Source of the DNA: an uncultured Eubacteriales bacterium
GTDB taxonomy: Bacteria; Bacillota; Clostridia; Christensenellales; Aristaeellaceae
Direction of reading: 5' to 3'
NCBI GenBank assembly: GCA_900315675.1
Contig: OMZY01000018.1
Location: 1 to 64,000, forward strand
Length of the DNA stretch: 64,000 bases
Positions 9,872-61,859 of the stretch are shown here, piece by piece (positions within the stretch are counted from its first letter, which is position 1; each line of letters opens with the position of its first letter). Both the position numbers and the translations under genes were made by a program. The notes beneath the pieces are model-generated. The model did no database searches. It saw only the letters and a list, made by a program, of their open reading frames with translations, and was not told the DNA's origin.

Positions 9872-10423
9872 ATGAAGACCGTATATGATTTCACCGTAAA
9901 GGACAGACAGGGACAGGAAGTCAGTCTGAAGGACTATGAGGGCAAGGTGCTGCTGATTGTCAACACGGCCACCGGCTGCGGCTTCACCCCGCACTATGAG
10001 CCCCTGGAAGCTATGTATAAGGAACTGAAGGAGAAGGGCCTGGAGATCCTGGATTTCCCCTGCAACCAGTTTGCCAATCAGGCGCCCGGCAGCGAAGAGG
10101 AAATTCATCAGTTCTGCACCCTGAAGTACGGCACCGATTTCCCGCAGTTCGCGAAGATCGACGTGAACGGGGATAACGCAGATCCGCTGTTCGCCTTCCT
10201 GGCGACGGAAAAACCCTTCACCGGTTTCGGCAAAGGGCTGAAAAATGCCGCCATGAACAAGTTTGCTGACCTGAACAACCGGAAGTTTGGAGACAAGGCG
10301 TATGTCAAGTGGAACTTCACCAAGTTCCTGGTGGACCGCGAAGGCAAAGTGATTGCCCGCTTTGAGCCGACGATGGACATGAAGGAAGTCAAAGCGGCGG
10401 TAGTGTCATTGCTGAAGCAATGA
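9872..10423 (+). CDS. Glutathione-peroxidase-family thiol peroxidase
   Basis: 183 residues, full length for the bacterial BtuE/GPx family. The peroxidatic Cys is in NTATGCGFTPHY (Cys36), and the other active-site residues are in FPCNQFANQ (Gln) and VKWNFTKFLVDR (Trp, Asn). It uses Cys rather than selenocysteine and in bacteria is normally thioredoxin-dependent; it reduces H2O2 and lipid hydroperoxides in the cytoplasm. It has its own promoter, directly behind the rubrerythrin operon, so the region works as an oxidative-defence island. ATG 9872 has GAAAGGAGC at about 9 bases. Confidence 0.92.
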   Translation: MKTVYDFTVKDRQGQEVSLKDYEGKVLLIVNTATGCGFTPHYEPLEAMYKELKEKGLEILDFPCNQFANQAPGSEEEIHQFCTLKYGTDFPQFAKIDVNGDNADPLFAFLATEKPFTGFGKGLKNAAMNKFADLNNRKFGDKAYVKWNFTKFLVDREGKVIARFEPTMDMKEVKAAVVSLLKQ

Positions 10424-10450
10424 CAAATGCATAATGCACAATGCACAATG
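10404..10450 (+). repeat. Stop-codon palindrome leading into a heptamer array
   Basis: TGTCATTGCT / AGCAATGACA (10404-10425, 2-nt loop) contains the peroxidase stop codon (10421-10423). It runs straight into CATAATG, CACAATG, CACAATG units. Confidence 0.8.
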
Positions 10451-10457
10451 GCGGATA

Positions 10458-10487
10458 AAACGACTTCCGGAAGGAAGTCGTTTTTTT
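10458..10487 (+). terminator. Intrinsic terminator
   Basis: AACGACTTCC/GGAAGTCGTT stem followed by seven T residues; terminates the peroxidase transcript. Confidence 0.85.
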
Positions 10488-10510
10488 CTATTATGATCGC
10501 CTGCGGGCGG

Positions 10511-10552
10511 GGAGATTTCTCCATGCGGCCTATGGCCTTAGTCGAAATGACA
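10511..10552 (-). repeat. GTCATTTCGAC-type palindromic repeat
   Basis: On the minus strand it begins GTCATTTCGAC and ends GGAGAAATCTCC, with a variable central hairpin. The same ends occur at 34157-34204 with a different central stem. This copy lies in the 394-base gene-free stretch 10424-10817, which otherwise holds only repeats. Confidence 0.6.
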
Positions 10553-10577
10553 ATGTGGAGGCAGCGGAGCGTGGAAA

Positions 10578-10660
10578 CGGGAATGTGACAGAGGGACGGC
10601 CCTTTCCGTCACGGCCGTCAGGCTGTGACCGCAGGACCGTCCCTTACTGTCATGTTCCCG
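10578..10660. repeat. TGACAGAGGGACGG inverted-repeat element
   Basis: The left arm has TGACAGAGGGACGG (10586-10599) and the right arm ends CCGTCCCTTACTGTCA (to 10652); the match extends outward as CGGGAA/TTCCCG. The core is shared with the larger palindrome at 39662-39760. No coding sequence inside. Confidence 0.65.
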
Positions 10661-10700
10661 CAGAACGCCTGGGATGTTTAGGGTATTGCGTCCTTCGGAC

Positions 10701-10735
10701 GTAGTAAGGGATCCTTCGACTGCGCTCAGGATGAC
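10701..10735. repeat. Half-copy of the GIY-YIG-associated repeat
   Basis: AGTAAGGGATCCTTCGAC followed by TGCGCTCAGGATGACA matches the right half of the palindrome at 57045-57126 and resembles the inverted repeats around the GIY-YIG gene at 21364. Confidence 0.6.
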
Positions 10736-10783
10736 AACACGGACGCTGCGGCTTACTCATACGTCCTGTATCCGCAGCAAAAT

Positions 10784-10838
10784 CAATTATGAATTGTGAA
10801 TTATGAATTGTGAATTCTTAAAACACGAAGTGTATTAA
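10784..10838 (-). repeat. Heptamer array and stop-codon palindrome of azlD
   Basis: TTAAAACAC-GAA-GTGTATTAA (10818-10838, one mismatch, GAA apex) contains the azlD stop. Its outer arm adjoins four to five AATTATG/AATTGTG heptamers (10784-10817). Confidence 0.75.
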
Positions 10839-11138
10839 TGCCATATAGCATATAGTTCCCGCCAGGATACTCACCAGCACATTTCTTTTCCAGGCCTGCA
10901 GGGCAACCACCAGCAGGGCGGAGATCAGCTCCGGGATGCCGAAAGGCGCGGAGCTGATTTTGGTATCCTTCAGGCAGTAAACCACCAGCATGCCGATGAT
11001 TGCCGGGGGAAGCACTTTGCCCAGGTAGGCAAGCCAGTCCGGGGTATTCTTCCGGAAAACCAGGAAAGGCAGTGCCCGGAGCAGGATGGTGACCAGGGAC
11101 ATGGCGGCCACCAGGAGGGCGGAATGGGAAAGGCTCAT
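10818..11138 (-). CDS. azlD: AzlD-family branched-chain amino acid exporter subunit
   Basis: 106 residues and four hydrophobic helices, the small membrane partner of AzlC. Typical family sequence: ALLVAAMSLVTILLRALPFL (membrane segment with a charged RALPF) and LAYLGKVLPPAIIGMLVVYC. AzlCD exports branched-chain amino acids and analogues. ATG 11138 is 3 codons inside the azlC end (4-base overlap), after GGAAAGGAGGG, the usual translational coupling of the pair. Confidence 0.88.
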   Translation of the reverse strand: MSLSHSALLVAAMSLVTILLRALPFLVFRKNTPDWLAYLGKVLPPAIIGMLVVYCLKDTKISSAPFGIPELISALLVVALQAWKRNVLVSILAGTICYMALIHFVF

Positions 11139-14336: not shown

Positions 14337-14705
14337 ATGAAACTGAAGAAGCTGCCTTATACGCTGACGGTGTGCAAGCTGGATTCCGCGGAAAGCATTA
14401 ACCTGAATGAGGATTTTTATTTCATCGGCAAAACGGATGAGGAACTCTCCCTGGTCTGCAGGACAGAAAGCACGCCTGCAAACACCACCGCCCGGGAGGA
14501 CGGCTGGCGGGGCTTCCGGATTGAGGGGACGCTGGATTTTTCCCTGATCGGGATCCTGTTCCCGATTGCTGCGATCCTGGCGGAAAACAAAATCGGTATC
14601 TTCGCCGTATCCACCTACAACACGGATTATGTGCTTGTGAAGGAAGAAAACTTTGACAAAGCAATGACCGCCCTGGGGGCGGCCGGATATGAGATCACGG
14701 AATAA
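14337..14705 (+). CDS. ACT-domain protein
   Basis: 122 residues with two ACT-like halves. The C-terminal half (LIGILFPIAAILAENKIGIF, then VSTYNTDYVLVKEENFDKA) is the clearest and matches the small ACT_7/CASTOR-type proteins that sense amino acids. There is no enzyme domain, so it is either a free regulator or a subunit. It has its own promoter and terminator and lies alone between an aldo-keto reductase operon and a chromate transporter. AGGGAG precedes ATG 14337 by about 5 bases. Confidence 0.82.
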   Translation: MKLKKLPYTLTVCKLDSAESINLNEDFYFIGKTDEELSLVCRTESTPANTTAREDGWRGFRIEGTLDFSLIGILFPIAAILAENKIGIFAVSTYNTDYVLVKEENFDKAMTALGAAGYEITE

Positions 14706-15376: not shown

Positions 15377-15936
15377 TTTACCTGGAACTGCTGATCGGCT
15401 TCCTGAAGGTGGGCCTGTTCTCCTTCGGCGGCGCGTATGCCGCGATTCCGCTGATCCGGGAAGTAGTGCTTTCCTACGGCTGGGTGTCGGAGGAAATGCT
15501 CATAGACATGATCGCCGTCAGCGAGAGTACCCCCGGTCCGATCATGGTGAACCTGGCGACCTATGTGGGCACCAGACAGGCGGGAATTCCCGGTGCAATC
15601 ATTGCCACCCTGGCGTCCATCCTGCCCGCGTTTGTGATCATCCTGCTGATCATGGCGGTGATGAAGCGGACGGTGAACAACAAATACGCCCAGGCAGTCA
15701 TGCGGGGCCTGCAGAGCTGCGTGATCGGCGTGATCACGGCGGTGGGCGTCCACATGCTGTATAAGAACGCTGTCCTGCCCCTGACGGCGGCGGAAGCGGA
15801 CTGGCGGCCGCTGGCCCTGGCCATTGTGCTGGCGGTGATCTATTTCGGCTCCCGGAAGATCAAAGCGCTGAAGAAGGGCATTTCGCCGATCCTGCTGATC
15901 GGTATTTCCGCGGTACTCGGAGTACTGGTTTTCTGA
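15373..15936 (+). CDS. Chromate transporter, C-type half
   Basis: 187 residues, the same length as its partner and clearly paralogous: FLKVGLFSFGGAYAAIPLI and ESTPGPIMVNLATYVGTRQA. The duplicated small genes correspond to the two halves of long ChrA. GGAGGTGAGCAGGC before ATG 15373 gives a strong start inside the end of the first gene. The stop codon lies in the stem of the first hairpin of an unusual hairpin array. Confidence 0.9.
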   Translation: MIYLELLIGFLKVGLFSFGGAYAAIPLIREVVLSYGWVSEEMLIDMIAVSESTPGPIMVNLATYVGTRQAGIPGAIIATLASILPAFVIILLIMAVMKRTVNNKYAQAVMRGLQSCVIGVITAVGVHMLYKNAVLPLTAAEADWRPLALAIVLAVIYFGSRKIKALKKGISPILLIGISAVLGVLVF

Positions 15937-16049
15937 GGGAAACCTCAGAAAACAATGAATTATTTGCCCGAAGGGCAAATATGAATGATTGCTTCGCAAT
16001 ATGAATTATTCGGCTTACGCCGAATATGAATTATCCGACTTCGTCGGAT
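15933..16049. repeat. Array of five small hairpins linked by heptamers
   Basis: CTGAGG-GAAA-CCTCAG (15933-15948, contains the chrA stop), ATTTGCCC-GAA-GGGCAAAT (15962-15980), ATTGC-TTC-GCAAT (15988-16000), ATTCGGC-TTAC-GCCGAAT (16008-16025) and ATCCGAC-TTC-GTCGGAT (16033-16049). Between hairpins 2 to 5 the spacers are ATGAATG, ATGAATT and ATGAATT, the complement of the window's common AATTCAT heptamer. Confidence 0.8.
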
Positions 16050-17266: not shown

Positions 17267-17331
17267 CTTTCCGTCCGGATGATGTCCGGAATGTTTTTTG
17301 CTGCATAACTGGCAGAAAAAAGTATCTGTCA

Positions 17332-17390
17332 TTATGAATTATGAATTGTGAATTATGAATTGAAATAAAAGAATGCTGTTCTTTTATTTC
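17332..17390 (-). repeat. Heptamer array and stop-codon palindrome
   Basis: GAAATAAAAGAA-TGCTG-TTCTTTTATTTC (17362-17390, 12 bp perfect) contains the stop of the minus-strand deacetylase. Its outer arm touches ATGAATT/GTGAATT units (17332-17361). Confidence 0.8.
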
Positions 17391-21233: not shown

Positions 21234-21263
21234 ATTCACAATTCATAATTCATAATTCATAAT
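21231..21263. repeat. Heptamer array
   Basis: AATTCAC AATTCAT AATTCAT AATTCAT AATGC directly after the deacetylase; the stop TGA is the first base triplet of TGAATTCA. Confidence 0.75.
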
Positions 21264-21318
21264 GCTTAGTAACCAAAAGCACGGGATTATTCCTTACGTA
21301 GGAGGATGCATACGGGGG

Positions 21319-21753
21319 GTGTCATCCCGAGCGAAGTCGAGGGATCCCTTGCTAAGTAAAAGCATGAATGACTACTATGTATACATTTTAACCAACGAGC
21401 GGGATACACGATTTTATATCGGTGTGACAAATAATCTGACCCGCAGGGTGTACGAGCATAAGAATGAATTGATAGATGGATTTACCAAGCAATATCATAT
21501 TCACAAGCTTGTATACTTCGAAATGTGTCATGATGTGGAAGACGCTATTCGCAGAGAGAAACAGCTGAAAAGCTGGACCCGCGTGAAAAAGATAGCGTTG
21601 ATTGAGCGTATGAATCCTCGCTGGAAGGATTTTGGAGAAGAAATATAGCAAGGGATTCCTCGACTCACTTTGTGCCCCGGGGCTGCCGCCCGTTCTCCAC
21701 TAAAATAGAGCCACTGGCTCTATTTCCGGGCGTTTCGAACCCCGGAATGACAC
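21319..21753 (+). mobile_element. Putative GIY-YIG element with inverted repeats
   Basis: Left boundary GGTGTCATCCCGAGCGAAG, right boundary CGGAATGACACC, inverted to each other. Inside, AGTCGAGGGATCCCTTGCT (21335-21353) and AGCAAGGGATTCCTCGACT (21647-21665) form a second inverted pair with 18 of 19 matches that closely frames the coding region. The right half also holds the hairpin AAATAGAGCCA-CT-GGCTCTATTT. No target duplication could be defined by eye. Confidence 0.55.
21364..21648 (+). CDS. Small GIY-YIG endonuclease-domain protein
   Basis: 94 residues. YYVYILTN and FYIGVTNNLTRRVYEH give the GIY-YIG core (here Y-V-Y and Y-I-G), with the catalytic Arg in RRVYEHK and the acidic residue in the EDAIRREKQLK helix. 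It belongs to the UPF0213/YhbQ-like single-domain group, whose cellular role is poorly known. The gene fills the space between two inverted repeats, and its TAG stop is the first part of the right repeat. The start is ATG 21364 without a clear ribosome binding site; AAGTAAAAGC precedes it. AT-richer and with different codon use (TAT, ATA, AGA) than neighbours, a sign of transfer. Confidence 0.85.
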   Translation: MNDYYVYILTNERDTRFYIGVTNNLTRRVYEHKNELIDGFTKQYHIHKLVYFEMCHDVEDAIRREKQLKSWTRVKKIALIERMNPRWKDFGEEI

Positions 21754-24908: not shown

Positions 24909-24970
24909 ATTCTATCATTCTTCATTTTTCATTCTTCATTACGTATGTAATGCGTTCGCATTACATACGT
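24909..24970 (-). repeat. Heptamer array and stop-codon palindrome of argS
   Basis: ACGTATGTAATGC and GCATTACATACGT (24941-24970) form a 13-bp perfect stem with a GTTC apex, including the argS stop. It borders CATTCTT/CATTTTT units (24909-24940) and has no T tract. Confidence 0.85.
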
Positions 24971-26679: not shown

Positions 26680-26689
26680 GGAAATCCCT

Positions 26690-26723
26690 CAATTCACAAT
26701 TCATAATTCATAATTCATAATTA
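26690..26723. repeat. Heptamer array
   Basis: AATTCAC AATTCAT AATTCAT AATTCAT AATTAT upstream of argS. The next 220 bases (26724-26942) show no gene or clear signal. Confidence 0.75.
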
Positions 26724-26942
26724 TATATACTCAACCCCCGGAAGTTTTCCGGCAAAGGCATTGTACAAAATAATATTATACAGGGTTTACAGGTTTTTCC
26801 GCAATACCAAAATCCCGAATCCTGAGGGGCATTGATACAGGGATAAACAGACCACAATTATGAATTGCTATTTGTCTTGCCTTCTGCTGACATCCTTGTA
26901 ACAGGGGAGGGAACAGGCTATGCCCGGAAACGGCCGGAAAAG

Positions 26943-27011
26943 TATATCATTGTGCATTGTGCATTATGCATTGTGCATTATGAAACTTCATCCGCTGACG
27001 GATGAAGTTTC
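26943..27011. repeat. Heptamer array ending in a 13-bp hairpin
   Basis: CATTGTG CATTGTG CATTATG CATTGTG CATTATG, then GAAACTTCATCCG-CTGA-CGGATGAAGTTTC (26982-27011). The hairpin ends one to two bases before the nifJ -35 element and lacks a T tract. Confidence 0.75.
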
Positions 27012-27012
27012 A

Positions 27013-27041
27013 TTGACATCTTCCTATATAATGCATATAAT
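27013..27041 (+). promoter_or_regulatory. Consensus promoter of nifJ
   Basis: TTGACA (27013-27018), 17 bases, TATAAT (27036-27041), both perfect. A leader of about 100 bases follows, containing GGGCGG...CCGCCC pairing. Confidence 0.85.
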
Positions 27042-27148
27042 TACATACAGAGGCGAACCGCTTTTTTCGTGCGCATTTTTATACGAAAACGACGGTCTAC
27101 ATACGGGCGGGCAACCGCCCCGCCCACATCAAGTCAGGAGGTAAGTTC

Positions 27149-30100
27149 ATGTCCATCAAACTGACCATTGACGGCAATACTGCTGTCAGCCACGTTGCGT
27201 ATGCGTTCAGCGATGTGGCAGCCATCTACCCCATTACCCCCTCTTCCCCCATGGCGGAAGTTGCGGATGAATGGGCCGCCCATGACAGGAAGAACCTGTT
27301 CGGCCAGACGGTGCGCATCGCCGAGATGCAGTCCGAAGCCGGCGCCGCCGGTGCCGTGCACGGCTCTCTGTCCGCCGGTGCTCTGACCACCACATTCACC
27401 GCTTCCCAGGGTCTGCTGCTGATGATCCCCAATATGTACAAGATCGCCGGCGAACTCACGCCCGCAGTCTTCCATGTCAGCGCCCGCGCTCTGGCGTATC
27501 ACGCGCTGAACATCTTCGGTGATCACAGCGACGTTATGGCCTGCCGCCAGACCGGTTTCGCGATGCTGGCCAGCAACTCCGTCCAGGAAGCTCACGACAT
27601 GGCTCTGGTTGCCCATCTGGCGACCCTGAAGAGCTCCGTGCCGTTCCTGCACTTCTTCGACGGTTTCCGCACCAGCCACGAAATCCAGAAGATCGACGCG
27701 ATCGACACCAAGAACAACTACGAAGAGATCAAGGCTCTCGTGCCGTGGGACAAGGTTGAAGAGTTCCGCGCCCGCGCCCTGAATCCGGAACATCCGCATC
27801 AGGCCGGTACCGCCCAGAACAGCGATATCTACTTCCAGGGCCGTGAAGCCGCCAACAACTTCTACGCTGCCGTTCCCGCCATCGTGGAAGAGTGCATGGA
27901 CGAAGTCGCCAAGCTGACCGGCCGGGTTTACAAGCCCTTCCAGTATGAAGGCGCTCCGGATGCCGAAAAGGTCATCATCTCCATGGGCTCCAGCTGCGAC
28001 GTTGCTCACGAGACCATCAACAAGATGCTCGAGAGCGGCGAAAAGGTCGGTATCGTGAAGTGCCACCTGTACCGTCCCTTCTCCGTGGAATACCTGATGA
28101 AGGTGCTCCCGAAGACCGTGAAGAAGATCGCCGTGCTGGACCGCACCAAGGAATCCGGTTCCCTGGGCGAGCCTCTGTACCTGGATGTTGTTTCTGCCCT
28201 GGCGGAAGCCGGACGCGGCGACATCAAGGTTGTGGGCGGCCGTTACGGTCTGGGCAGCAAGGAATTCACCCCCACCATGGTGAAGGCCGTGTTCGCCAAC
28301 CTGGACGGTGAAATGAAGAACCACTTCACCGTGGGTATCGATGATGACGTCAGCAACACCAGCCTGAAGCTGGGCGAAACCTTCGCCGCGGCTCCCGCCG
28401 GCACCGCTGCCTGCATGTTCTACGGTCTGGGTTCCGATGGTACCGTCGGCGCCAACAAGAACAGCATCAAGATCATCGGTGACCACACCGAGAAGTATGC
28501 CCAGGCTTACTTCTTCTATGATTCCAAGAAGTCCGGCGGTCTGACCGTCAGCCACCTGCGCTTCGGCGACACCCCGATCCAGAGCCCCTATCTGATCGAC
28601 GTGGCGGACTTCATTTCCTGCTCCAACCCCGCGTACGTCACCATGTACGACATGGTGAGCCCGCTGCGTGAGGGCGGCACCTTCCTGCTGAACTGCCAGT
28701 GGAGCGTAGAAGAGCTGAACGAGCGCCTGCCCGCTTCCATGAAGAACAAGCTGGCTGCCAAGAAGGCGAACTTCTACATCATCAACGCGATTGACCTGGC
28801 CCGCAAGGTCGGTATGGGCGGACGTACCAACACCACCATGCAGGCTGCCTTCTTCAAACTGGCCGACATCATCCCCTACGAAGATGCCGACAAGTACATG
28901 AAGGAAAAGGTTGTCGCTTCCTACGGCAAGAAGGGCCAGGATGTCGTCAACATGAACTTCGCCGCGATCGACGCTGCCCTGACCGGTCTGGTCAAGGTTG
29001 ACATCCCCGCCGACTGGGCGACCACCACTGAAGGCGCCGTGCCCGCCAAGGTGCCCGGAACTAACGAGTACTACGATGAGTTCATCGCTCCGGTTCTGGC
29101 CCAGGAAGGCAACAAGCTGCCCGTCAGCAAGCTGGATCCCCGCGGTATCGTGCCCACCGGCACCACCAAGTTCGAAAAGCGCGGTATTGCCGTGTTTGTG
29201 CCTGAATGGCAGATCGACAACTGTATCCAGTGCGGCACCTGCTCCATCGTCTGCCCGCACGCCTGCATCCGTCCCATCTATGTTGAGGGTGATGCGAAAG
29301 TGCCGGAAGGCTTCGCCACCAAGAACGCGACCGGTAAGGAATTTGCCGGTATGAAGTACCGCCTGCAGGTCAGCCCGCTCGACTGTACCGGCTGCGGCAA
29401 CTGCGTTGACGTCTGCCCGCTGAAGGACAAGGAAGGCAAGCAGGCCCTGGTTATGAAGCCCCTGGACAGCCAGCGTAAGGAAGAGGCCAACTGGGAGTAC
29501 GCCATGACCGTTCCGGAAGTTGCTTCCAAGATCGAGAACAAGGCTTCCGTCAAGAACAGCCAGGCCCTCAAGCCCCTGTTCGAGTTCTCCGGTGCCTGCG
29601 CCGGCTGCGGCGAGACGCCCTACGTCAAGCTGGTTACCCAGCTGTTCGGCGACCGCATGATGATCGCCAACGCGACGGGCTGCTCCTCCATCTACGGCGG
29701 TTCTGCCCCGACCTGCCCCTACACCACCAACGAAAAGGGCTTCGGACCTGCCTGGTCCAACTCCCTGTTCGAAGATAACGCTGAGTTCGGCTTCGGTATG
29801 AACCTGGCCACCACCCAGCGCCGCGCCAAGCTGGCTGAAGTGATCGCGGAAGTGGTCGAAGTCGGTAAGGACGAAGCCATCGTGGCCGCTGCCAAGGAAT
29901 GGCTGGACAACATGGACGACGCTGAAGGTTCCCGCAAGGCCGGCGAAAAGCTGGTTGCCGCGCTGGAAGCCAAGGACGGCGGCGCCGACAAGAAGGCCTT
30001 CATCCTGGCCAACAAGGACCTGCTGACCAAGAAGTCCATCTGGATCTTCGGCGGCGACGGCTGGGCCTATGATATCGGCTACGGCGGAGTTGACCACGTG

Positions 30101-30673
30101 CTGGCTCAGAACCAGGATGTCAACATCCTCGTTCTGGACACCGAAGTGTACTCCAACACCGGCGGCCAGGCCTCCAAGGCTACCCCCACCGGTTCTGTGG
30201 CGAAGTTCGCTGCCTCCGGTAAGCGCACCAAGAAGAAGGACCTGGGTATGATGGCCATGAGCTACGGCTATGTGTACGTTGCCCAGGTGGCTATGAGCAA
30301 CCCGCAGCAGGTTATCAAGGCCATGCTGGAAGCGGAAGCTTATCACGGCCCGTCCCTGATCATCGCCTACGCACCCTGCATCAACCACGGCCTCAAGGCC
30401 AAGGGCGGCATGGGTAAGGCCCAGGCTGAAATCAAGAAGGCCGTTGACTGCGGTTACTGGCAGCTGTACCGGTACAATCCGGAAGCTGAGAACCCGATGA
30501 CCATCGACAGCAAGGATCCCACCGGCGATTATCAGGAATTCCTGAAGGGCGAGGTTCGTTACACCTCCCTGGCTCAGCAGTTCCCGGATGCCGCCGCCAA
30601 GCTCTTTGTCCAGCAGGAAGAGGACGCCAGAGTGCGCCGCGAATCCTACAAGAAGATGGCGGGACAGAACTAA
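27149..30673 (+). CDS. nifJ: Pyruvate:ferredoxin (flavodoxin) oxidoreductase
   Basis: 1174 residues, full length for the single-chain homodimeric enzyme. Order: pyruvate-binding N domain (YPITPSSPMAE), domain II, gamma domain, an 8Fe ferredoxin domain (CIQCGTCSIVCPHAC and CTGCGNCVDVCP), and the TPP domain (GDGWAYDIGYGG, EVYSNTGGQ) with the proximal cluster Cys in CAGCGETPY. It converts pyruvate and CoA to acetyl-CoA, CO2 and reduced ferredoxin, central to anaerobic energy metabolism. Codon choice is strongly biased (AAG, CTG, TCC, GGT), and promoter and SD (AGGAGG) are near perfect: a highly expressed gene. It is monocistronic with a strong terminator. Confidence 0.97.
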   Translation: MSIKLTIDGNTAVSHVAYAFSDVAAIYPITPSSPMAEVADEWAAHDRKNLFGQTVRIAEMQSEAGAAGAVHGSLSAGALTTTFTASQGLLLMIPNMYKIAGELTPAVFHVSARALAYHALNIFGDHSDVMACRQTGFAMLASNSVQEAHDMALVAHLATLKSSVPFLHFFDGFRTSHEIQKIDAIDTKNNYEEIKALVPWDKVEEFRARALNPEHPHQAGTAQNSDIYFQGREAANNFYAAVPAIVEECMDEVAKLTGRVYKPFQYEGAPDAEKVIISMGSSCDVAHETINKMLESGEKVGIVKCHLYRPFSVEYLMKVLPKTVKKIAVLDRTKESGSLGEPLYLDVVSALAEAGRGDIKVVGGRYGLGSKEFTPTMVKAVFANLDGEMKNHFTVGIDDDVSNTSLKLGETFAAAPAGTAACMFYGLGSDGTVGANKNSIKIIGDHTEKYAQAYFFYDSKKSGGLTVSHLRFGDTPIQSPYLIDVADFISCSNPAYVTMYDMVSPLREGGTFLLNCQWSVEELNERLPASMKNKLAAKKANFYIINAIDLARKVGMGGRTNTTMQAAFFKLADIIPYEDADKYMKEKVVASYGKKGQDVVNMNFAAIDAALTGLVKVDIPADWATTTEGAVPAKVPGTNEYYDEFIAPVLAQEGNKLPVSKLDPRGIVPTGTTKFEKRGIAVFVPEWQIDNCIQCGTCSIVCPHACIRPIYVEGDAKVPEGFATKNATGKEFAGMKYRLQVSPLDCTGCGNCVDVCPLKDKEGKQALVMKPLDSQRKEEANWEYAMTVPEVASKIENKASVKNSQALKPLFEFSGACAGCGETPYVKLVTQLFGDRMMIANATGCSSIYGGSAPTCPYTTNEKGFGPAWSNSLFEDNAEFGFGMNLATTQRRAKLAEVIAEVVEVGKDEAIVAAAKEWLDNMDDAEGSRKAGEKLVAALEAKDGGADKKAFILANKDLLTKKSIWIFGGDGWAYDIGYGGVDHVLAQNQDVNILVLDTEVYSNTGGQASKATPTGSVAKFAASGKRTKKKDLGMMAMSYGYVYVAQVAMSNPQQVIKAMLEAEAYHGPSLIIAYAPCINHGLKAKGGMGKAQAEIKKAVDCGYWQLYRYNPEAENPMTIDSKDPTGDYQEFLKGEVRYTSLAQQFPDAAAKLFVQQEEDARVRRESYKKMAGQN

Positions 30674-38039: not shown

Positions 38040-38094
38040 TTCTGAATAACGATTTCCTGCAAATTCATAATTCACAATTCATAATTCATAATTT
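38028..38094 (+). repeat. Stop-codon palindrome and heptamer array
   Basis: ATTCAGAAT-TG-ATTCTGAAT (38028-38047) contains the hflX TGA. After 15 bases, AATTCAT AATTCAC AATTCAT AATTCAT AATT (38062-38091). Confidence 0.75.
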
Positions 38095-39760: not shown

Positions 39761-39798
39761 TCAGGGGAGAGCAGGAACGTGACAGAAGGGACAGTAAC

Positions 39799-39856
39799 TA
39801 TCATTCTTCATTTTTCATTCTTCATTTTATCCGCGGGCTTTGCCCAGCGGATAAAA
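39799..39856 (-). repeat. Heptamer array and stop-codon palindrome
   Basis: TTTTATCCGC-GGGC-TTT-GCCC-A-GCGGATAAAA (39825-39856) contains the stop of the EAL protein. It borders CATTCTT/CATTTTT units (39799-39824). Confidence 0.85.
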
Positions 39857-41515: not shown

Positions 41516-41849
41516 GGCAAGCGCTCCGCTTTCTTCTTTAGTTTTGAAAACCATTTACATCATACAGGAATCGAATCCGAAAAACAACCCCAATGTACGG
41601 ACATTTTTGTACAAAAACGGCCAAAAGAATAAATAAACCTATGGTTTTTGTAAGCATTGCAAGATTTGTCCGCAAAAAAGTATAAATTGTATTTTCTTTG
41701 CTCTGCGGATACGGTGTTTCTTCACGCTGAAGTTCCGGAGCAGAACAGAAAAGCAGGAGTCCTTTCGGACTCCTGTTGTCAATATCAGATACACAACGGC
41801 TCAGAATTGAACGGTATACTGAAACCGTATATTGTTTGGCCGGAGTATC

Positions 41850-41912
41850 TCATTCTGCATTCTGCATTTTTAATTCTGCATTGCAGCTATCTGATCCGCG
41901 AAGCGATCAGAT
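41850..41912 (-). repeat. Heptamer array and stop-codon palindrome
   Basis: ATCTGATC-CGC-GAA-GCG-ATCAGAT (41889-41912, one bulged base, GAA apex) contains the sulfhydrylase stop. It borders CATTCTG CATTCTG CATTTTT AATTCTG CATTG units (41850-41884). Confidence 0.8.
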
Positions 41913-43184
41913 GGCTGCCAGCGCCTGCGCAATATCCTCGATCAGGTCGTCCTTGCTTTCCAGGCCGACGCTGAGGCGCACCAGGTCCGGAGAGACGCCG
42001 GCGGCGAGCAGCTCCTCATCGCTCATCTGGCGGTGGGTGGCGCTGGCGGGATGCAGGCAGCAGCTGCGGGCGTCCGCCACATGGGTTTCGATGGCGGCTA
42101 CCTTCAGGTGCTTCATGAAGGCTTCCGCGGCCTTCCGTCCGCCCTTCACGCCGAAGGACACCACGCCGCAGGAACCGTTGGGCAGGTATTTCTTTGCCCG
42201 CTCATAGTATTTGTCTCCGGGCAGACCGCAGTAACTGACCCAGGCGATCTTGTCATGCCCGGCCAGGAATTCCGCCACGGCCTGGCCGTTTTCGCAGTGA
42301 CGCTTCATGCGCACGTGCAGGCTCTCCAGGCCCAGACCCAGCAGGAAGGCGTTCTGCGGCGCCTGGATGGAACCGAAGTCCCGCATCAGCTGGGCGGTCG
42401 CCTTGGTGATGAAGGCGCCTTCCAGGCCGAAACGCTCGGTATAGGTGATTCCGTGATAGCTGTCATCCGGCGTGGTCAGGCCGGGGAATTTGTCCGCATA
42501 CCTGTTCCAGTCGAACTTGCCGCTGTCCACAATGGCGCCGCCGACCGCGCTGCCGTGGCCGTCCATGTACTTGGTGGTGGAGTGGGTCACGATATCCGCG
42601 CCCCATTCAATGGGCCGGCAGTTGACGGGGGTGGCGAAGGTGTTGTCAATGATCAGCGGAACACCGTGGGCGTGGGCGGCCTTCGCGAACTGCTCAATAT
42701 CCAGCACGCACAGGGCCGGGTTGGCGATGGTCTCGCCGAAGAGCGCCTTGGTGTTGGGCCGGAAGGCGGCGTTCAGCTCCTCATCCGTGCAGTCCGGGCT
42801 GACGAAGGTGAAGTCGATGCCCATCCGCTTCATGGTCACGGCGAAGAGGTTGTAGGTGCCACCGTAGATGGCGGAGCAGGCCACCACATGGTCTCCGGCG
42901 CTGGCAATATTGAAGACGGCGAAGAAGTTGGCCGCCTGGCCGGAGGAGGTGAGCATGGCCGCGGAGCCGCCCTCCAGGGCGCAGATACGGGCCGCGACTG
43001 TGTCGTTGGTGGGATTCTGCAGGCGGGTATAGAAATAACCGGAGGCTTCCAGGTCAAAGAGCTTGCCCATATCCTCACTGGTATCATATTTAAAGGTAGT
43101 GGACTGGATGATCGGAATCTGGCGGGGTTCGCCGTTCTTCGGCGTATAGCCGCCCTGTACGCAAAGAGTTTCAATGCGGGACAT
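41907..43184 (-). CDS. O-acetylhomoserine sulfhydrylase-type enzyme
   Basis: 425 residues, full-length Cys/Met-metabolism PLP enzyme. STTFKYDTSEDMGKLF and SGYFYTRLQNPT near the N-terminus, PLP phosphate site TSSGQAANFF, and the Schiff-base Lys in HSTTKYMDGHG. Length and the DSYHG region fit O-acetylhomoserine aminocarboxypropyltransferase (MetY), making homocysteine or methionine precursors from sulfide. The close family includes cystathionine gamma-synthase. Start ATG 43184 after AAAAGGAGGC. No SAM riboswitch or T-box was seen upstream. Confidence 0.92.
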   Translation of the reverse strand: MSRIETLCVQGGYTPKNGEPRQIPIIQSTTFKYDTSEDMGKLFDLEASGYFYTRLQNPTNDTVAARICALEGGSAAMLTSSGQAANFFAVFNIASAGDHVVACSAIYGGTYNLFAVTMKRMGIDFTFVSPDCTDEELNAAFRPNTKALFGETIANPALCVLDIEQFAKAAHAHGVPLIIDNTFATPVNCRPIEWGADIVTHSTTKYMDGHGSAVGGAIVDSGKFDWNRYADKFPGLTTPDDSYHGITYTERFGLEGAFITKATAQLMRDFGSIQAPQNAFLLGLGLESLHVRMKRHCENGQAVAEFLAGHDKIAWVSYCGLPGDKYYERAKKYLPNGSCGVVSFGVKGGRKAAEAFMKHLKVAAIETHVADARSCCLHPASATHRQMSDEELLAAGVSPDLVRLSVGLESKDDLIEDIAQALAAI

Positions 43185-48872: not shown

Positions 48873-49820
48873 ATGACAACGAGAACTGCCGCAAGGCATA
48901 TAAAGCACCGCAATCCCATGGACCGGCAGGGGCCCGGGGACAAAGTGATCAGCGTGGTCACCTATATCGTCTACGCGTTCTTTGCCTTCGTCTGCGCCTA
49001 CCCGTTCTACTACATCATTATCAACTCCATCAGCGCCAACAACCTCTCCGAACGCGGCAAGGTCCTGTTCTGGCCCATGGAGATCCACTTCAAGAACTAT
49101 ACCCGGCTGACCAGTATTCCCGGCCTGCTGGACGCGGCAAAGATTTCCGTGCTGCGGACCGTGATCGGTATGGCTCTTACGGTGCTGATCGCCGCCTTCC
49201 TGGGCTATATGTTTACCCGGGAAACCATGTGGAAACGGAAACTGTGGTTCCGCTTTGTGGCCGTAACCATGTATTTCAACGCCGGTATCATTCCCTGGGT
49301 GCTGTGCATGCGGAACCTGGGACTGAACAACAACTTCTGGGGCTATATTCTCCCGATGGTGATCCAGCCCTTCTATATCATCCTGTGCAAGACCTATTGT
49401 GAATCGGTTCCCAGGGAACTGCAGGAGGCTGCCGAAATAGACGGCGCCGGGACGCTGAAGGTATTCTTCCGGATCATGCTCCCGGTTATCAAGCCCATCC
49501 TGGCCACCATCGCGATCTTCGCGGCGGTGAACCAGTGGAACGCCTTCCAGGACAACCTGCTCCTGATGCCCAACCGCCGGGACCTGGACACCCTGCAGTA
49601 CAAGCTGTGGCAGTATATCACCCAGGCCAACAGCCTGAAGGCCCTGGTCAGCAACACCACCAACTCCAACGCGATTATGGCCGGTATGGCCACCGCCGCC
49701 ACGGCGACCGCCATCCGGATGTCCGTTACCGTTGTGGTTGTGCTCCCCGTCATGATGATCTATCCCTTCTTCCAGCGGTACTTTACGAAGGGAATTATGA
49801 TCGGAGCGGTGAAGGGCTAA
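48873..49820 (+). CDS. Sugar ABC permease, YtcP/LplC-type
   Basis: 315 residues. Membrane segments begin VISVVTYIVYAFFAFVCAYP; EAA loop EAAEIDGAGTLKVFFRIMLP; C-terminal GIMIGAVKG ending. Partner of the preceding permease. GGAAGGGGGAAGAG precedes ATG 48873. The stop codon lies within a short perfect palindrome, and a long duplicated leader separates it from the binding protein. Confidence 0.93.
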   Translation: MTTRTAARHIKHRNPMDRQGPGDKVISVVTYIVYAFFAFVCAYPFYYIIINSISANNLSERGKVLFWPMEIHFKNYTRLTSIPGLLDAAKISVLRTVIGMALTVLIAAFLGYMFTRETMWKRKLWFRFVAVTMYFNAGIIPWVLCMRNLGLNNNFWGYILPMVIQPFYIILCKTYCESVPRELQEAAEIDGAGTLKVFFRIMLPVIKPILATIAIFAAVNQWNAFQDNLLLMPNRRDLDTLQYKLWQYITQANSLKALVSNTTNSNAIMAGMATAATATAIRMSVTVVVVLPVMMIYPFFQRYFTKGIMIGAVKG

Positions 49821-49866
49821 AGCCCTTAACCGCCCGATCAAATGAACAATTAACAATTAACAATGA
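49812..49866 (+). repeat. Stop-codon palindrome and heptamer array
   Basis: AAGGGCT-AA-AGCCCTT (49812-49827) contains the permease stop. Then AACAATT AACAATT AACAATG AATAATG (49844-49871). Confidence 0.75.
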
Positions 49867-49938
49867 ATAATGAGAGTGTGTAACGACAAATTGTGAAACG
49901 TTACGGCGCGTGAAAGAACGTTGGTCTGGAGAATAAAG

Positions 49939-49968
49939 TATTAATTCTTCATTTTTCATTCTTCATTT
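49939..49968. repeat. Heptamer array, CATTCTT type
   Basis: AATTCTT CATTTTT CATTCTT CATTTGG, immediately before the structured duplicated leader. Confidence 0.7.
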
Positions 49969-49971
49969 GGA

Positions 49972-50379
49972 ATAAAGACCAGAAGGTCTTTATCATATTT
50001 AAAAGGGAGGGGAGCGAGGGAAGCGGTGTCCCAGTGGGACATTTGCCGAAGGCAAAAGCGACCCGAACGAGTCAACCGAAAGGGAGAGCAAAGTCCGCTC
50101 CAAGGACTTTGAGCGACCATTGAGGTTGCGGTAGTAGTCGATGTGGGCGCGCAAGCCCTTACATCATATATTAAAAGGAGGGGAGCGAGGGAAGCGGTGC
50201 CACAGTGTGGCATTTGCTGAAAGCAAAAGCGACCCGAACGAGTCAACCGAAACAAGCAGAAGGCTGCAACGACAGCAAGGCCTTCTGCGACGATTGAGGT
50301 TGCGGACCAAGGAATTATGGCCTGCAACGACAGCAAGGCCTTCTGCGACGATTGAGGTTGCGGACCAAGGAATTATGGC
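49972..50379 (+). ncRNA. Duplicated structured RNA-like leader
   Basis: Two copies, A (49972-50131) and B (50141-50305). Each runs: small hairpin, TCATAT-rich link, GGAGGGGAGCGAGGGAAGCGG, hairpin 2, hairpin 3, GCGACCCGAACGAGTCAACC, hairpin 4, ATTGAGGTTGCGG. Unpaired segments are nearly identical while stems change on both sides: hairpin 2 GTCCC/GGGAC versus GCCAC/GTGGC; hairpin 3 TTTGCC/GGCAAA versus TTTGCT/AGCAAA; hairpin 4 CAAAGTCC/GGACTTTG versus GCAGAAGGC/GCCTTCTGC. A perfect 58-base tandem duplication (50264-50321 and 50322-50379) repeats the end of copy B. A third hairpin with the same link (50377-50413) leads into the ribosome binding site of the binding-protein gene. Not a family I recognise; other orientation or DNA-level role possible. 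Confidence 0.6.
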
Positions 50380-50421
50380 AGCATTGCCAAAAATTCATAT
50401 ATTTAAAGGAGGGTATTGCAA

Positions 50422-52107
50422 ATGAAACGGTTTCTGTCTGTTCTGCTGACAATTGCCATGCTCCTGAGCCTGGTAACCATCAGCGCGGTGGCTGAGGAAG
50501 AAGCACCCCTCGTCATCGATGTGTACGATGATGCCGCCAACTACAACGGCATCCAGAGTGGCTGGTTCGCCAAGGTGATTAAGGATCGGTTCAACATCGA
50601 ACTGAACATCATCGCGTCCCAGGTGGTTGGTAATACTGTCTATGCCACCCGTTCCGAAGAAGGAAATCTGGGTGACATCCTGCTCGTGGACAAATCCAAG
50701 TTCCCGGAAATCGTGGAAGCCGGCCTGGCCAAGGATATCAGCGACAAGCTGCCCGGCTGCGAAAACATCATGAAGTTCAAGACCCAGATCGACGTTTACA
50801 ACAAGGGCCTGACCGGTGAAGAAGGCAAGTACTACGGCATTCCTACCGAAATGACCGATACTTCCCCCAGCACCCTGACCGATGACGTGATCTATTCCAG
50901 CCCCATGCTCCGCTGGGATCTGTATAAAGAGATCGGCGCCCCGAAGCTGGAGACCCTGGATGACCTGCTCGACGCTCTGGTGAAGATCCATGAGATCCAT
51001 CCCAAGAACGAACAGGATGATCCCGCTTATCCCTTCTCCCTGTGGCCCGACTGGGACGGCAACGACAACATGGTCGGTCCGGCCAACGTTGTGCAGCTGA
51101 CCACCTGGTACGGCGAAAAGTTGAAGGGCAGCGCCATGCTGAAGCCCGACAACACCTTCAGCAAGCTCTATGAACGCGACAGCGCCTACTACAAAATCAC
51201 CAAGTTCCTGAACAAGGCTTATCAGCTGGGTCTGGTGGATCCGGACTCCGGCACCCAGAACTGGGATAACGCCTGCGCCAAGATGTCCTCCGGCCGCGTG
51301 GACGTGATGTGGTACAGCTGGCAGGTTGGTTTCTGGAACAGCGTGGACCGTCTGAACGCCGGTACCGCTTTCCGCTTCATCCCCGTTGGCGATATGCAGT
51401 TCTATGCTGACGCTGACCGTTACTACGGTTCCGACCGTATGTTCGGTATCGGCGCCGGTGTGGAAGGCGAGAAGTATGACCGGATCATGGAATTCCTTGA
51501 CTGGTATGCCAGCCCCGAAGGCGTCACCTTCCAGCACAACGGTATCGAAGGCCTGAACTACACCATCGGCGAAGATGGCAAGTTCGTGCCCTACAAGGAC
51601 AACGCCCTGATGGACAACCTGCCCGTGCCGGACGAATTCGGCGGCGGCGGATTCAGCGACGGTAACAACGCCATCAACCAGTGGATCGTTTCCTCCATCT
51701 GCGTGAACCCCACCACCGGCGAGCGCTTCGCCCAGAAGTACTGGCAGTCCTACAAGGACATGACCATGACCGAGATGAAGAAGGAATGGTCCGAAATGTT
51801 CGACGCTGAGGACGATGTTGACTGGATGAAGAAGAACGGCAAGCTGCTGGCCAGCCCGAGCGTTGACTTCACCCCCGCTGCGGACGACAACACCATCGCT
51901 GCCATCCGTACCGACGTCAACAAGTGCCTGTGCGAATACACCTGGAACCTGTTCTTCTGCGCTTCTGACGACGAGTTCGAAGCCATGTGGGACGAAATGA
52001 TCACCCAGCTGGACGGCTTCGACTATCAGACCCTGTTCGATTATGACTGCGCTCTGTGGCAGCCCGAAATCGACGCGAAGGTTGCTGCTGCGGCCGCCGC
52101 GGAATAA
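50422..52107 (+). CDS. Sugar ABC substrate-binding protein, LplA/YtcQ-type
   Basis: 561 residues. The signal peptide MKRFLSVLLTIAMLLSLVTI is cut near AVA-EEE, no lipobox. The large two-lobed binding fold has aromatic residues such as MLRWDLYKEIG, DVMWYSWQVGFWNSVD and YWQSYKDMTM that suit oligosaccharide stacking. It belongs with the two LplB/LplC-type permeases upstream. Start ATG 50422, 8 bases after AAAGGAGGG; an in-frame TTG at 50416 is less suitable. Very regular codon use (highly expressed). Confidence 0.9.
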   Translation: MKRFLSVLLTIAMLLSLVTISAVAEEEAPLVIDVYDDAANYNGIQSGWFAKVIKDRFNIELNIIASQVVGNTVYATRSEEGNLGDILLVDKSKFPEIVEAGLAKDISDKLPGCENIMKFKTQIDVYNKGLTGEEGKYYGIPTEMTDTSPSTLTDDVIYSSPMLRWDLYKEIGAPKLETLDDLLDALVKIHEIHPKNEQDDPAYPFSLWPDWDGNDNMVGPANVVQLTTWYGEKLKGSAMLKPDNTFSKLYERDSAYYKITKFLNKAYQLGLVDPDSGTQNWDNACAKMSSGRVDVMWYSWQVGFWNSVDRLNAGTAFRFIPVGDMQFYADADRYYGSDRMFGIGAGVEGEKYDRIMEFLDWYASPEGVTFQHNGIEGLNYTIGEDGKFVPYKDNALMDNLPVPDEFGGGGFSDGNNAINQWIVSSICVNPTTGERFAQKYWQSYKDMTMTEMKKEWSEMFDAEDDVDWMKKNGKLLASPSVDFTPAADDNTIAAIRTDVNKCLCEYTWNLFFCASDDEFEAMWDEMITQLDGFDYQTLFDYDCALWQPEIDAKVAAAAAAE

Positions 52108-57185: not shown

Positions 57186-57247
57186 AAATTATGAATTATG
57201 AATTGTGAATTATGAATTAAAAAAAGGCTGTTGTCAGCCTTTTTTCT
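57186..57247 (-). repeat. Heptamer array with terminator/stop palindrome of murG
   Basis: ATTATGA ATTATGA ATTGTGA ATTATGA ATT, then AAAAAGGCTG-TTGT-CAGCCTTTTT. The murG stop is in the stem, and leftwards the T tract makes a normal terminator. Confidence 0.85.
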
Positions 57248-59652: not shown

Positions 59653-59693
59653 AAGCCAAAACTTGTATAATCTGGTAAAAAAGTATAAAGATC

Positions 59694-59722
59694 TTGCAAT
59701 GCCATGACACATTTGTTATAAT
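59694..59722 (+). promoter_or_regulatory. Promoter of the LacI-controlled importer
   Basis: TTGCAA (59694-59699), 17 bases, TATAAT (59717-59722), with a TGT extension in front of the -10. Confidence 0.8.
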
Positions 59723-59800
59723 AATTCCAGACAAAGAAGATCCAAATTTGATTTTGCTTAAGGAATGAAAGGGTTTCCGGGTTTTTTACGACAGGAGGAT

Positions 59801-59844
59801 TGAAACCGGTTTCATTTTTTCTCAGAGATTTGAAACCGGTTTCA
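59801..59844. promoter_or_regulatory. Twin LacI-type operators
   Basis: TGAAACCGGTTTCA occurs perfectly at 59801-59814 and 59831-59844, 30 bases apart centre to centre (about three helix turns), 70-120 bases after the transcription start. Palindrome with central CG is typical for LacI/CcpA-family proteins. Confidence 0.85.
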
Positions 59845-59898
59845 GAATTCCGGAAAGTACATGTTTCTGTCAGGACCGAGAGAGAAGGAGTGAGTCAC

Positions 59899-60852
59899 TT
59901 GCAGAAAGCTGCGCAGCAGAAGGTGATCAATTACCGCAAACCTTCCGTGGGCCGCACACTGAAGCAGAACAGGACGCTGATCTTTATGTGCATACCGGCG
60001 ATCCTGTTCTTCTTCGTCTTTTCCTACCTGCCCATGCCGGGCGCCTATATCGCGTTCACCAACTTCCAGTACAACAAAGGCATTTTCGCCAGTCCCTTCG
60101 TTGGCCTGAAGAACTTCCAGTTTCTCTTTATCTCCGGCCAGCTGGGACTGCTGCTGAAGAATACAGTGCTGTACAACCTGGCTTTCATCATCCTGGGAAA
60201 CATCCTGCAGCTGGCTTTCGCCATCATGCTGAATGAAGTGGCCTGCAAGGGTTACAAGAAGACGGCCCAGAGCATCATGTTCCTGCCATACTTCATTTCA
60301 GACGTTCTGGTGTCCCTGCTGGTTTATAACCTGATCAATTACGACTTTGGCTTCATCTCCCACCTGGTGCGGAACCTGGGCGGTACCATGCCGAAGGTTT
60401 ACCAGAACCCGGGGGCCTGGCCCTTCATCATCGTGCTGGTTCATCTGTGGAAGTCCACCGGTTACGGCACGGTGGTCTACTTCGCCGCCATCACCGGCAT
60501 GGATTCTTCCATGATGGAAGCGGCGCAGATTGACGGCGCCAACGCCTGGCAGCGGATCCGCTACATTACGCTGCCCACCCTGAAGCCCACGGTCATTATC
60601 CTGTTCCTTTTCGCCATCGGCGGCATCCTGAAGGGCAACTTCGGACTGTTCTACAACCTGGTCGGCAACAACTCCATGCTGTTTAAGACCACGGACATCA
60701 TTGAGACCTATGTGTACCGGTCCATGATGAACAGCTTCAACTTCTCCCAGAGCAGCGCCGTCGGCCTGTTCCAGAGTGTGGTCGGATTCTTTATCGTGCT
60801 GGGGGCCAATGCCTTCGTGAAGCACCTGGATCCGGATTACGCCCTGTTCTGA
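59899..60852 (+). CDS. Sugar ABC permease, LplB-type
   Basis: 317 residues from TTG 59899, which follows AGAGAAGGAG by 8 bases. Longer in-frame starts (59800, 59890) translate the operators or the ribosome binding site and are rejected. Membrane segments start LIFMCIPAILFFFVFSYLP; EAA loop EAAQIDGANAWQRIRYITLP. Pairs with the next permease; the substrate is a plant or host oligosaccharide, judging from the family 2 glycosidase downstream. Confidence 0.9.
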   Translation: MQKAAQQKVINYRKPSVGRTLKQNRTLIFMCIPAILFFFVFSYLPMPGAYIAFTNFQYNKGIFASPFVGLKNFQFLFISGQLGLLLKNTVLYNLAFIILGNILQLAFAIMLNEVACKGYKKTAQSIMFLPYFISDVLVSLLVYNLINYDFGFISHLVRNLGGTMPKVYQNPGAWPFIIVLVHLWKSTGYGTVVYFAAITGMDSSMMEAAQIDGANAWQRIRYITLPTLKPTVIILFLFAIGGILKGNFGLFYNLVGNNSMLFKTTDIIETYVYRSMMNSFNFSQSSAVGLFQSVVGFFIVLGANAFVKHLDPDYALF

Positions 60853-60873
60853 GCGGAAAGGAGGAAGGGAAAA

Positions 60874-61803
60874 ATGACTGAAAAGATCCGCGCCGAGCAC
60901 CTGATGCATACGACCCATATCCGCAAGGATAAGAGCCAGATCGTCATCAATGTGCTGACCTATATCCTGGTGACCATTTTCTGCGTCATGTGCATCCTGC
61001 CATTCTGGATGATCATCGCGTCCTCCTTCGCCACAGAGGACAGCATCCGCCGGTCCGGCTTCACCCTGTGGCCTTCGGAATTCACCACCTTCTCCTATGA
61101 ACTGCTTTTCCGCAGCCCGGACCAGATGATCGGCGCCTATATCGTGACCATCGGCCTGACGGTCGTGGGAACCCTGATCGGCCTGTTCATTATTGCCATG
61201 ACAGGCTACGCCCTGCAGCGGAGGGACTTCCCCTACCGGAACGGGATCATGTTCTATATCTACTTCACCTCCCTGTTCTCCGCCGGCCTGGTGCCTTTCT
61301 ACCTGCTGATGGTTCAGTACCTGAACCTGCGGGACAGCTACTTCGCGATCCTGCTGCCCCTGCTGATGAGCTCCTGGCTGATCGTACTGATGAAGAACTT
61401 CGTGAAGGCCATTCCCCATGAGATCACCGAATCCGGCAAGATCGACGGGGCAGGGGACTTCCGGATTTTCTACAGCCTGATCCTGCCGAACCTGAAGCCG
61501 GCCCTGGCCACCATCGGCCTGTTCCTGGCCCTGAGCTACTGGAACGAGTGGTATTACAGCTCCCTGTTCCTGACCACCAAGGTGGAATACCGGCCCCTGC
61601 AGTATCACCTGTATAACGTGATCAACAAGGTGGCCAGCCTGAAGAACTCCGTGGCCGGCTCCAACGTGGTCATTACCGACCTGCCCGGCGAAACCCTGAA
61701 GATGGCCACCGCCGTGGTTGCCACCGGCCCCATCATCCTGCTGTACCCCTTCGTGCAGAAGTACTTCGTTGCCGGCTTGACAGTGGGCGCAGTGAAGGGA
61801 TAA
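60874..61803 (+). CDS. Sugar ABC permease, YtcP/LplC-type
   Basis: 309 residues, six membrane segments (VLTYILVTIFCVMCILPFW first). EAA-type loop ESGKIDGAGDFRIFYSLILP. C-terminus LTVGAVKG. GGAAAGGAGGAAGGG precedes ATG 60874. The stop is part of a 13-bp imperfect palindrome with GAA apex. Confidence 0.92.
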   Translation: MTEKIRAEHLMHTTHIRKDKSQIVINVLTYILVTIFCVMCILPFWMIIASSFATEDSIRRSGFTLWPSEFTTFSYELLFRSPDQMIGAYIVTIGLTVVGTLIGLFIIAMTGYALQRRDFPYRNGIMFYIYFTSLFSAGLVPFYLLMVQYLNLRDSYFAILLPLLMSSWLIVLMKNFVKAIPHEITESGKIDGAGDFRIFYSLILPNLKPALATIGLFLALSYWNEWYYSSLFLTTKVEYRPLQYHLYNVINKVASLKNSVAGSNVVITDLPGETLKMATAVVATGPIILLYPFVQKYFVAGLTVGAVKG

Positions 61804-61859
61804 ATCGCGAAGCGCTTTATCCCTCCAAATTCACAATTCATAATTCATAATTCATAATG
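61796..61859 (+). repeat. Stop-codon palindrome and heptamer array
   Basis: AGGGATAAA-T-CGC-GAA-GCG-C-TTTATCCCT (61796-61824, one mismatch) contains the permease stop. Four bases later AATTCAC AATTCAT AATTCAT AATTCAT AATG (61829-61859). Confidence 0.85.

Follow-up and report, generated by a model that had tools for sequence, protein, structure and literature searches.

The 64,000-nt window analysed here comprises positions 1-64000 of contig C39 (OMZY01000018.1) of an uncultured Eubacteriales bacterium, whose genome (G000, 3.62 Mb in 57 contigs) was compared with those of its congeners; genes were called with our own script. The window contains numerous polar arrays built from 7-nt units and, at eleven genes, a palindrome at the stop codon. 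Read outward from the adjoining gene, the heptamer unit follows the consensus AATKMAN (for example AATTCAG, AATTCAT, AATGAAG, AATTAAC, AATTCAC and AATGCAC), and 70 arrays of this kind were found in the 464 kb of G000 that were sampled, from which the palindrome counts for this genome are also taken. The arrays are located near stop codons or between the promoter and the ribosome site of the next gene, often as inverted pairs with one member at each edge of an intergenic gap, and native terminators and promoters lie between the paired arrays. A fixed mobile core between paired arrays was considered and rejected, the inner sequences being mostly dissimilar save for short motifs such as ATAGTTACT.

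An 18-nt array probe (at most one mismatch) gave 277 matches in G000 and none when reversed. It matched 9 of the 41 genomes first scanned, 8 of 25 within the genus and one genome of another family (one match). The strongly array-bearing congeners are G000, G001, G002, G005, G015, G016 and G022 (39 to 441 probe matches); G004 gave 15 matches and, among six extra congeners probed, only G046 was positive, with 2 matches. G001, G002, G016 and G022 are closely related to G000 (proteins 91-97% identical), as is G005 judging from one protein. Several congeners, G015 and G016 among them, are incomplete drafts.

The first-pass annotation had reported stop-codon palindromes at eleven genes, and all eleven were present, with maximal arms of 9 to 18 nt and at most one mismatch. 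On the + strand, the palindrome spanning the stop at 10404-10425 (10-nt arms) abuts the array at 10426-10450, while those at 38019-38056 (18-nt arms), 49806-49833 (13-nt arms) and 61796-61824 (13-nt arms), each with one mismatch, also span the stop and are followed by arrays at 38062-38093, 49841-49872 and 61828-61859, respectively. On the - strand, stop-spanning palindromes are located at 17362-17390 (12-nt perfect arms), 24941-24970 (14-nt arms), 41883-41918 (14-nt arms, one mismatch) and 57220-57245, and their arrays at 17331-17361, 24916-24940 (AATGAAG/AATGAAA), 41851-41882 and 57187-57219. At 39825-39856 (- strand, 13-nt arms, one mismatch) the palindrome contains the stop codon and the array (39802-39826) starts directly after that codon, its first 2 nt within the palindrome. 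The weakest site is 10818-10838, a palindrome on the - strand within the coding sequence that ends in the stop (9-nt arms, one mismatch, score 6 in the stop-spanning scan), beside an array that runs outward on the same strand (10785-10816). An array touches or nearly touches the palindrome at these ten sites, as had been claimed, and the eleventh, at 15928-15953 on the + strand (11-nt perfect arms across the stop), runs into hairpins joined by the heptamer ATGAATT (15953-16037). The palindromes at 38019, 41883, 49806 and 15928 are longer than first noted.

By eye, a T tract was found at only one of the eleven sites, the terminator-like 57220-57245, in agreement with the earlier statement that most of these stems are not ordinary terminators. 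The stems had also been said to share no sequence and often to turn around a GAA/TTC apex. Most arms are indeed distinct, but a hairpin of the type TGTCATYGC...GCRATGACA recurs beside several arrays, including site 10404, where it is perhaps carried by the element; GAA/TTC apices are frequent but are no general rule.

Comparison of gene ends with and without arrays showed that the palindromes accompany the arrays. With a first, narrower array definition, stop-spanning palindromes were present in G000 at 12 of 33 array-adjacent ends versus 10 of the 215 remaining ends (1.3% and 0.5% in the swapped-partner controls), in array-rich relatives at 10 of 33 versus 5 of 120, and in array-less relatives at 1 of 33; most exceptions, when read, precede arrays that this definition had overlooked. 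A broad array pattern, drawn up after the results of the stop-spanning scan were known, gave 20 of 55 versus 2 of 193 in G000 and 37 of 111 versus 7 of 362 in six array-rich congeners pooled (Fisher p = 2.6e-19), with swapped-partner controls of 31/1102 and 2/3608, respectively. A separate set of array-less congeners had strong stop palindromes at 4 of 99 gene ends. Four of the seven non-array exceptions precede, by eye, a heptamer array of a different kind (ACTCTTC or ACTCTAC), which the search pattern does not cover. The palindromes are not conserved in array-less relatives either, and the idea of local copying put forward in the first-pass annotation withstood both comparisons.

The junction is close and one-sided. 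The distal arm terminates at most 3 nt from the array start in 28 of the 37 strong palindromes (median arm, 14 nt). Among 137 outward AATKMAN arrays, a palindrome was present on the 5' side of 45 and on the 3' side of 5, versus 35 of 1400 random intergenic positions; it was outer-only at 44 arrays and inner-only at 4. Sorted by outer neighbour, palindromes were found at 32 of the 82 arrays next to a gene stop and at 13 of the 54 next to a gene start (1 of the 137 arrays was unplaced), so that the palindromes first noted at gene stops occur at gene starts too. An example in the window is the palindrome at 26980-27013 (- strand), which is not at a stop; it adjoins the -35 region of the following gene on one side and a heptamer array (26948-26979) on the other.

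We then compared orthologous sites in the congeners, judging by eye the ancestry of the gene-side arms. At four of the eleven window sites, relatives that are array-free there retain the codons of the gene-side arm without the distal arm and the array: EIV at 38039, AAI* at 41907 (G002; RAI* in G016), ERM* at 24961 (G016, G012, G011 and G020; EKM* in G006) and GAVKG* at 49820 (G016). Because these relatives keep the gene end and have neither palindrome nor array, the distal arm has the appearance of host sequence copied in inverted orientation. Site 61796 was comparable only with G022, which retains GAVKG* and carries the array without the palindrome; at the remaining six sites an inverted copy of an ancestral flank was either not found or could not be decided.

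The gene ending at 38039 has the array and the long palindrome, an inverted copy of the conserved EIV codons, in G000, G001 and G022, and neither in G016, G012, G011, G006 and G020; EIV itself was retained in G016 and G006, and G002 has a hairpin-linked array at this gene and no such palindrome. Between G000 and G001 the inner part of the distal arm was, by eye, rewritten to match altered codons, with a change of length, in a manner resembling quasipalindrome correction. The gene ending at 41907 has the array and the palindrome in G000, G022 and G001, while array-free G002 has merely a 5-bp inverted repeat and array-free G016 none. The gene at 14337-14705 ends in plain terminators without an array in G000 and G022, whereas in G001 the terminator stem extends into a 20-nt palindrome, in which the stop and the last codons are copied, followed by an array. 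The divergent gap at 26680-27148 measures 174-221 nt without arrays in five congeners and 436-473 nt with arrays in four, between the same flanks; the palindrome against the -35 region is present in G000, G001 and G002 and imperfect in G022, and both it and its array are missing in G016, G006, G012, G011 and G020.

The hairpins could instead be part of a mobile element and replace the gene end upon insertion, as the recurring TGTCATYGC-type hairpin and the C-termini altered at 10423 and shortened at 17384 relative to orthologues would suggest. However, the arms differ among most of the 45 outer hairpins and, at several sites, the gene-side arm holds conserved codons, which is incompatible with such an origin there; it could hold for other sites, and we regard it as very unlikely as a general account.

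The pattern of mismatches within the stems was used to ask at which level, DNA or RNA, the hairpins are kept. In 43 array-side stop palindromes, isolated inner mismatches on the RNA strand were GU at 3, AC at 9 and other at 14, and in 94 ordinary terminators they were GU at 22, AC at 7 and other at 11 (GU vs AC, Fisher p = 0.004). The preference for G.U over A.C expected of an intrinsic terminator was thus not found (3:9 versus 22:7), and because of this the stems do not look maintained as messenger RNA hairpins; the mismatch pattern speaks against them. The other proposal of the first-pass annotation, that message ends are under strong selection to form a hairpin, therefore found no support, there being no G.U excess and gene starts carrying palindromes as well.

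A second form of array consists of a heptamer (GTGAAAT, ATGATAT or ATGAATT) alternating with short, nearly perfect, mutually dissimilar hairpins, of which the ATGAATT-linked copy at 15953-16037 is the window's own example. A search with the Rfam family Gut-1 RNA (RF01706) gave seven covariance matches at or above the gathering score in five of eight loci scanned, from congeners and other metagenome-assembled genomes. The window's copy scored 24.3 bits, below the cut-off of 50, as did all other G000 matches among those listed. At an E value of 0.001, Gut-1 was found in 6 of 31 congeners (5 above the family cut-off), all six among the nine that were probe-positive, and in none of the other 22; counts per genome are lower bounds, at most 106 candidates having been scored in each. 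The arrays of the congeners resemble Gut-1 RNA in that their hairpins are joined by the heptamer GUGAAAU, the Rfam consensus having the 5' end CAAUGAAAU. They differ from it in that they often follow a gene-end palindrome, occur in genomes that also have heptamer arrays without hairpins, and lack an excess of wobble pairs on the model strand: in 165 distinct hairpins, the inner mismatches were GT at 4, AC at 10 and other at 4, which are small numbers and not those of a structured RNA tolerating wobble pairs. In 2010, Gut-1 was listed as 'Human gut only' and classed with likely noncoding RNAs in the part of that report retrieved (PMC2864571); a literature phrase search returned no paper with 'Gut-1 RNA', and the retrieved text of PMC8040213 makes no mention of it.

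Of 21 Gut-1-type arrays, 18 come after a stop codon. With the leading strand inferred from the GC skew of the sampled stretches, a few of which deviate, the linker strand was the leading strand for 55 of 60 arrays (6 ambiguous ones dropped) and 54 of 60 (1 dropped) in two nearly complete congeners, that is 109 of 120 placed with 7 dropped, while the leading-strand genes of the same congeners number 188 of 319 and 116 of 186. A three-linker pattern, run against species genomes, matched 84 stretches. Hairpins between the linkers were found in 50 of the 80 loci examined, mostly from gut and rumen Clostridia and several preceded by a palindrome at the gene end, and not in 30, mainly direct repeats of unrelated taxa; in viral contigs, two three-linker stretches were found, both direct repeats without hairpins by the same hairpin test. 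An origin of the hairpins between linkers as former gene-end palindromes was considered and set aside, since these hairpins, with their AT...AT ends, and the linkers are unlike the first junction, at the gene end. In three orthologous arrays (L013 of G000, L145 and L160), five hairpins stand in conserved order with paired changes in their arms. At L013:11801, the linkers changed jointly from GTGAAAT to ATGAATT in the window's species relative to L145 and L160, which looks like concerted evolution.

Such paired changes bear on another explanation, in which selection keeps hairpin and array as a functional unit, either a protein site at the DNA level or a structure formed by the gene's antisense strand. 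Orthologous hairpins with compensated changes (the gene at 36273 in G001 versus G022, and L013, L145 and L160) agree with it. So do the Gut-1 hairpins, most of whose loops have the GNA or GNNA form when read on the strand that is not the linker strand, for which a role is therefore possible, and so does the excess of AC over GU on the linker strand. Its messenger RNA version, however, fails the GU test, no strong palindrome is present at 74 of the 111 gene ends next to arrays, and the hairpins at one gene vary in centre and length among species. The orthologues of the gene ending at 15936 have a different palindrome in each of four congeners (G000, G022, G001 and G002), followed by different repeats. 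We consider selection of such a unit unlikely.

The palindrome-array junctions suggest DNA copying that folded back upon the arrival of the array. The explanation that we favour, with about even confidence, is that the palindromes are inverted copies of the host flank made by fold-back DNA synthesis (an intrastrand template switch), in the same process that places the heptamer or Gut-1-type array. A DNA 3' end leaving the gene would pair with itself at a small hairpin nucleus, which may be a native terminator or an inverted repeat present by chance near the stop, and would be lengthened by 10-20 nt, templated by the gene end. Synthesis would then proceed into heptamer units, for which another array may have been the template, and the new end would rejoin the chromosome; the palindrome would later mostly decay and sometimes be re-perfected by further template switching. 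This reading is drawn from the association, the close adjacency, the polarity, the conserved gene-side arm at several sites, the mismatches unlike those of terminators and the leading-strand orientation of the Gut-1 form. The local copying first proposed is likewise supported by the gene-side codons retained without the distal arm at four of the eleven sites and by arrays that start where the copied arm ends.

For some of the sites, a serious alternative is that single-stranded hairpins, whether terminators or chance palindromes near stops, are recognised by a heptamer-built element, which inserts itself at the foot of the stem on the 3' side. The palindromes would then have come first and reflect only the choice of target. 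The close adjacency and one-sided polarity would be expected from this as well, and exposed single strands as target would fit the leading-strand Gut-1 orientation. Arrays stand directly behind the native terminators of the genes at 27149-30673 and 50422-52107 and, at the right edge of the gap 49821-50421, array-free G016 already has a hairpin, which is there older than the array. Against it, the five array-free congeners at 38039 have by eye no comparable palindrome, nor has G016 at 41907, where G002 has the 5-bp repeat only, and the stems contain long copies of conserved codons. We hold insertion at existing hairpins to be possible but doubtful.

Several further points weigh against fold-back copying. 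The 74 array-adjacent gene ends without a palindrome of such strength count here too, and plain heptamer arrays show a weak preference for the leading strand (47 of 71). The C-termini at 10423, 17384 and 39827 are themselves unlike those of orthologues, and G022 has the array without the palindrome at the orthologues of both 61803 and 39827; at the latter, G001 has the same gene end as G022 together with a long palindrome, so that gain and loss cannot be told apart. Selection could equally yield the paired arm changes between orthologous hairpins, and AC above GU (9:3 and 10:4) might reflect selection on the other strand.

No enzyme for the process was found. A reverse transcriptase conserved with the arrays had been envisaged as the source of templated heptamers, and this found no support: among the seven congeners strongly bearing arrays, the profile search for PF00078 (RVT_1) was negative in six (G000, G001, G002, G015, G016 and G022, of which G015 and G016 are incomplete drafts); it gave four matches in G005, one in G004, which has few arrays, and matches in several array-less congeners. 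Ku-dependent end joining was rejected since Ku was found in none of the 31 congeners. The Y1 transposases of the RAYT type, with Y1_Tnp matches in 20 of 31 genomes and repeats of their own, do not separate array-rich from array-less genomes, and neither do GIY-YIG nucleases, with at least one match in all 31 genomes and a copy number independent of arrays.

Among known systems, group IIC introns insert just 3' of a hairpin, at terminators; the array-bearing genomes here differ by the lack of an RVT_1 match in six of seven. Repetitive extragenic palindromic (REP) elements, which are served by RAYT transposases, are multicopy extragenic hairpins. The stems described here are mostly dissimilar and are not the conserved palindrome expected to be cognate to a RAYT gene, and the repeat GGGAACGATAGGGAC that flanks the two RAYT genes examined is unlike the heptamers. 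The attC sites of integrons, single-strand hairpins after stop codons, were considered by analogy only.

The intergenic TAACTGA arrays of Beggiatoaceae and others are also polar, made of 7-nt units and placed near starts and stops, but their unit is another one and the stem 'palindrom' occurs 0 times in the main text, as retrieved (PMC4679880). There is a likeness, too, to template-switch mutation at quasipalindromes, in which inverted copies perfect or extend a hairpin. According to the retrieved portions of the two sources, template switching was stronger on the leading strand in an Escherichia coli assay (PMC6357072) and can create and repair perfect hairpins (PMC8794818). Of its two marks, a distal arm that is an inverted copy of the ancestral flank was seen by eye at the four sites named above, and a leading-strand excess was seen for Gut-1-type arrays but was weak for plain heptamer arrays, the orientation having been scored on arrays. 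The mutations described in these portions are single events, whereas here the junction with a repeat array recurs at many sites per genome. The first-pass annotation knew of no described system of this kind; no earlier account of the palindrome-array junction was found among the top-ranked results of our literature searches, but the hairpin-linked form is already catalogued as Gut-1 RNA. The regular pairing of template switching with arrays at many genome sites, and the link to Gut-1, seem to be new.

Other repeats were observed in or near these gaps. The inner array ends (for example at 61860-61870, 39792-39801 and 41840-41850) frequently have a short motif like ATAGTTACTG or GATACT, which is also frequent at the inner end of Gut-1-type arrays, while the inner ends of other arrays lead into GGCGGANAAAA and a terminator; at L095 of G005, a heptamer array and a GGCGGRAAAAACAGCG-type terminator form two tandem units between the same gene pair. 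Upstream of the gene at 50422, repeats form a mosaic (GGAGGGGAGCGAGGGAAGCGGTG ... GATTGAGGTTGCGG) that includes an exact 58-bp tandem duplication (50264-50379), and related mosaics are present in G022 and G002. A small GIY-YIG nuclease reading frame (21262-21648) lies in an array-bounded gap and adjoins GTAGCAAGGGATTCCTC-type repeats, G000 having three such small copies. The RAYT-like Y1 transposase genes at L018:3542-4411 and L089:14397-15266 are flanked by their own repeat around GGGAACGATAGGGAC, which is a second repeat family of the genus.

More tentatively, Clostridia may have a DNA insertion system dedicated to these arrays and coupled to replication, which would work without a reverse transcriptase: it would start on a DNA hairpin, copy the host flank back on itself and write polar 7-nt units with or without further hairpins. 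The Gut-1 'RNA' would in that case be generated at the DNA level rather than be a noncoding RNA, and copying would account for its compensatory changes; we think this conceivable, though doubtful. If fold-back copying is the correct explanation, perfect stems with paired changes, the usual mark of a functional RNA, would here be largely products of DNA copying, and one Rfam family would need reinterpretation. It would also expose a route of repeat spreading that leaves behind an inverted copy of its landing site, a route that would become testable because one genus includes related species with and without the arrays.

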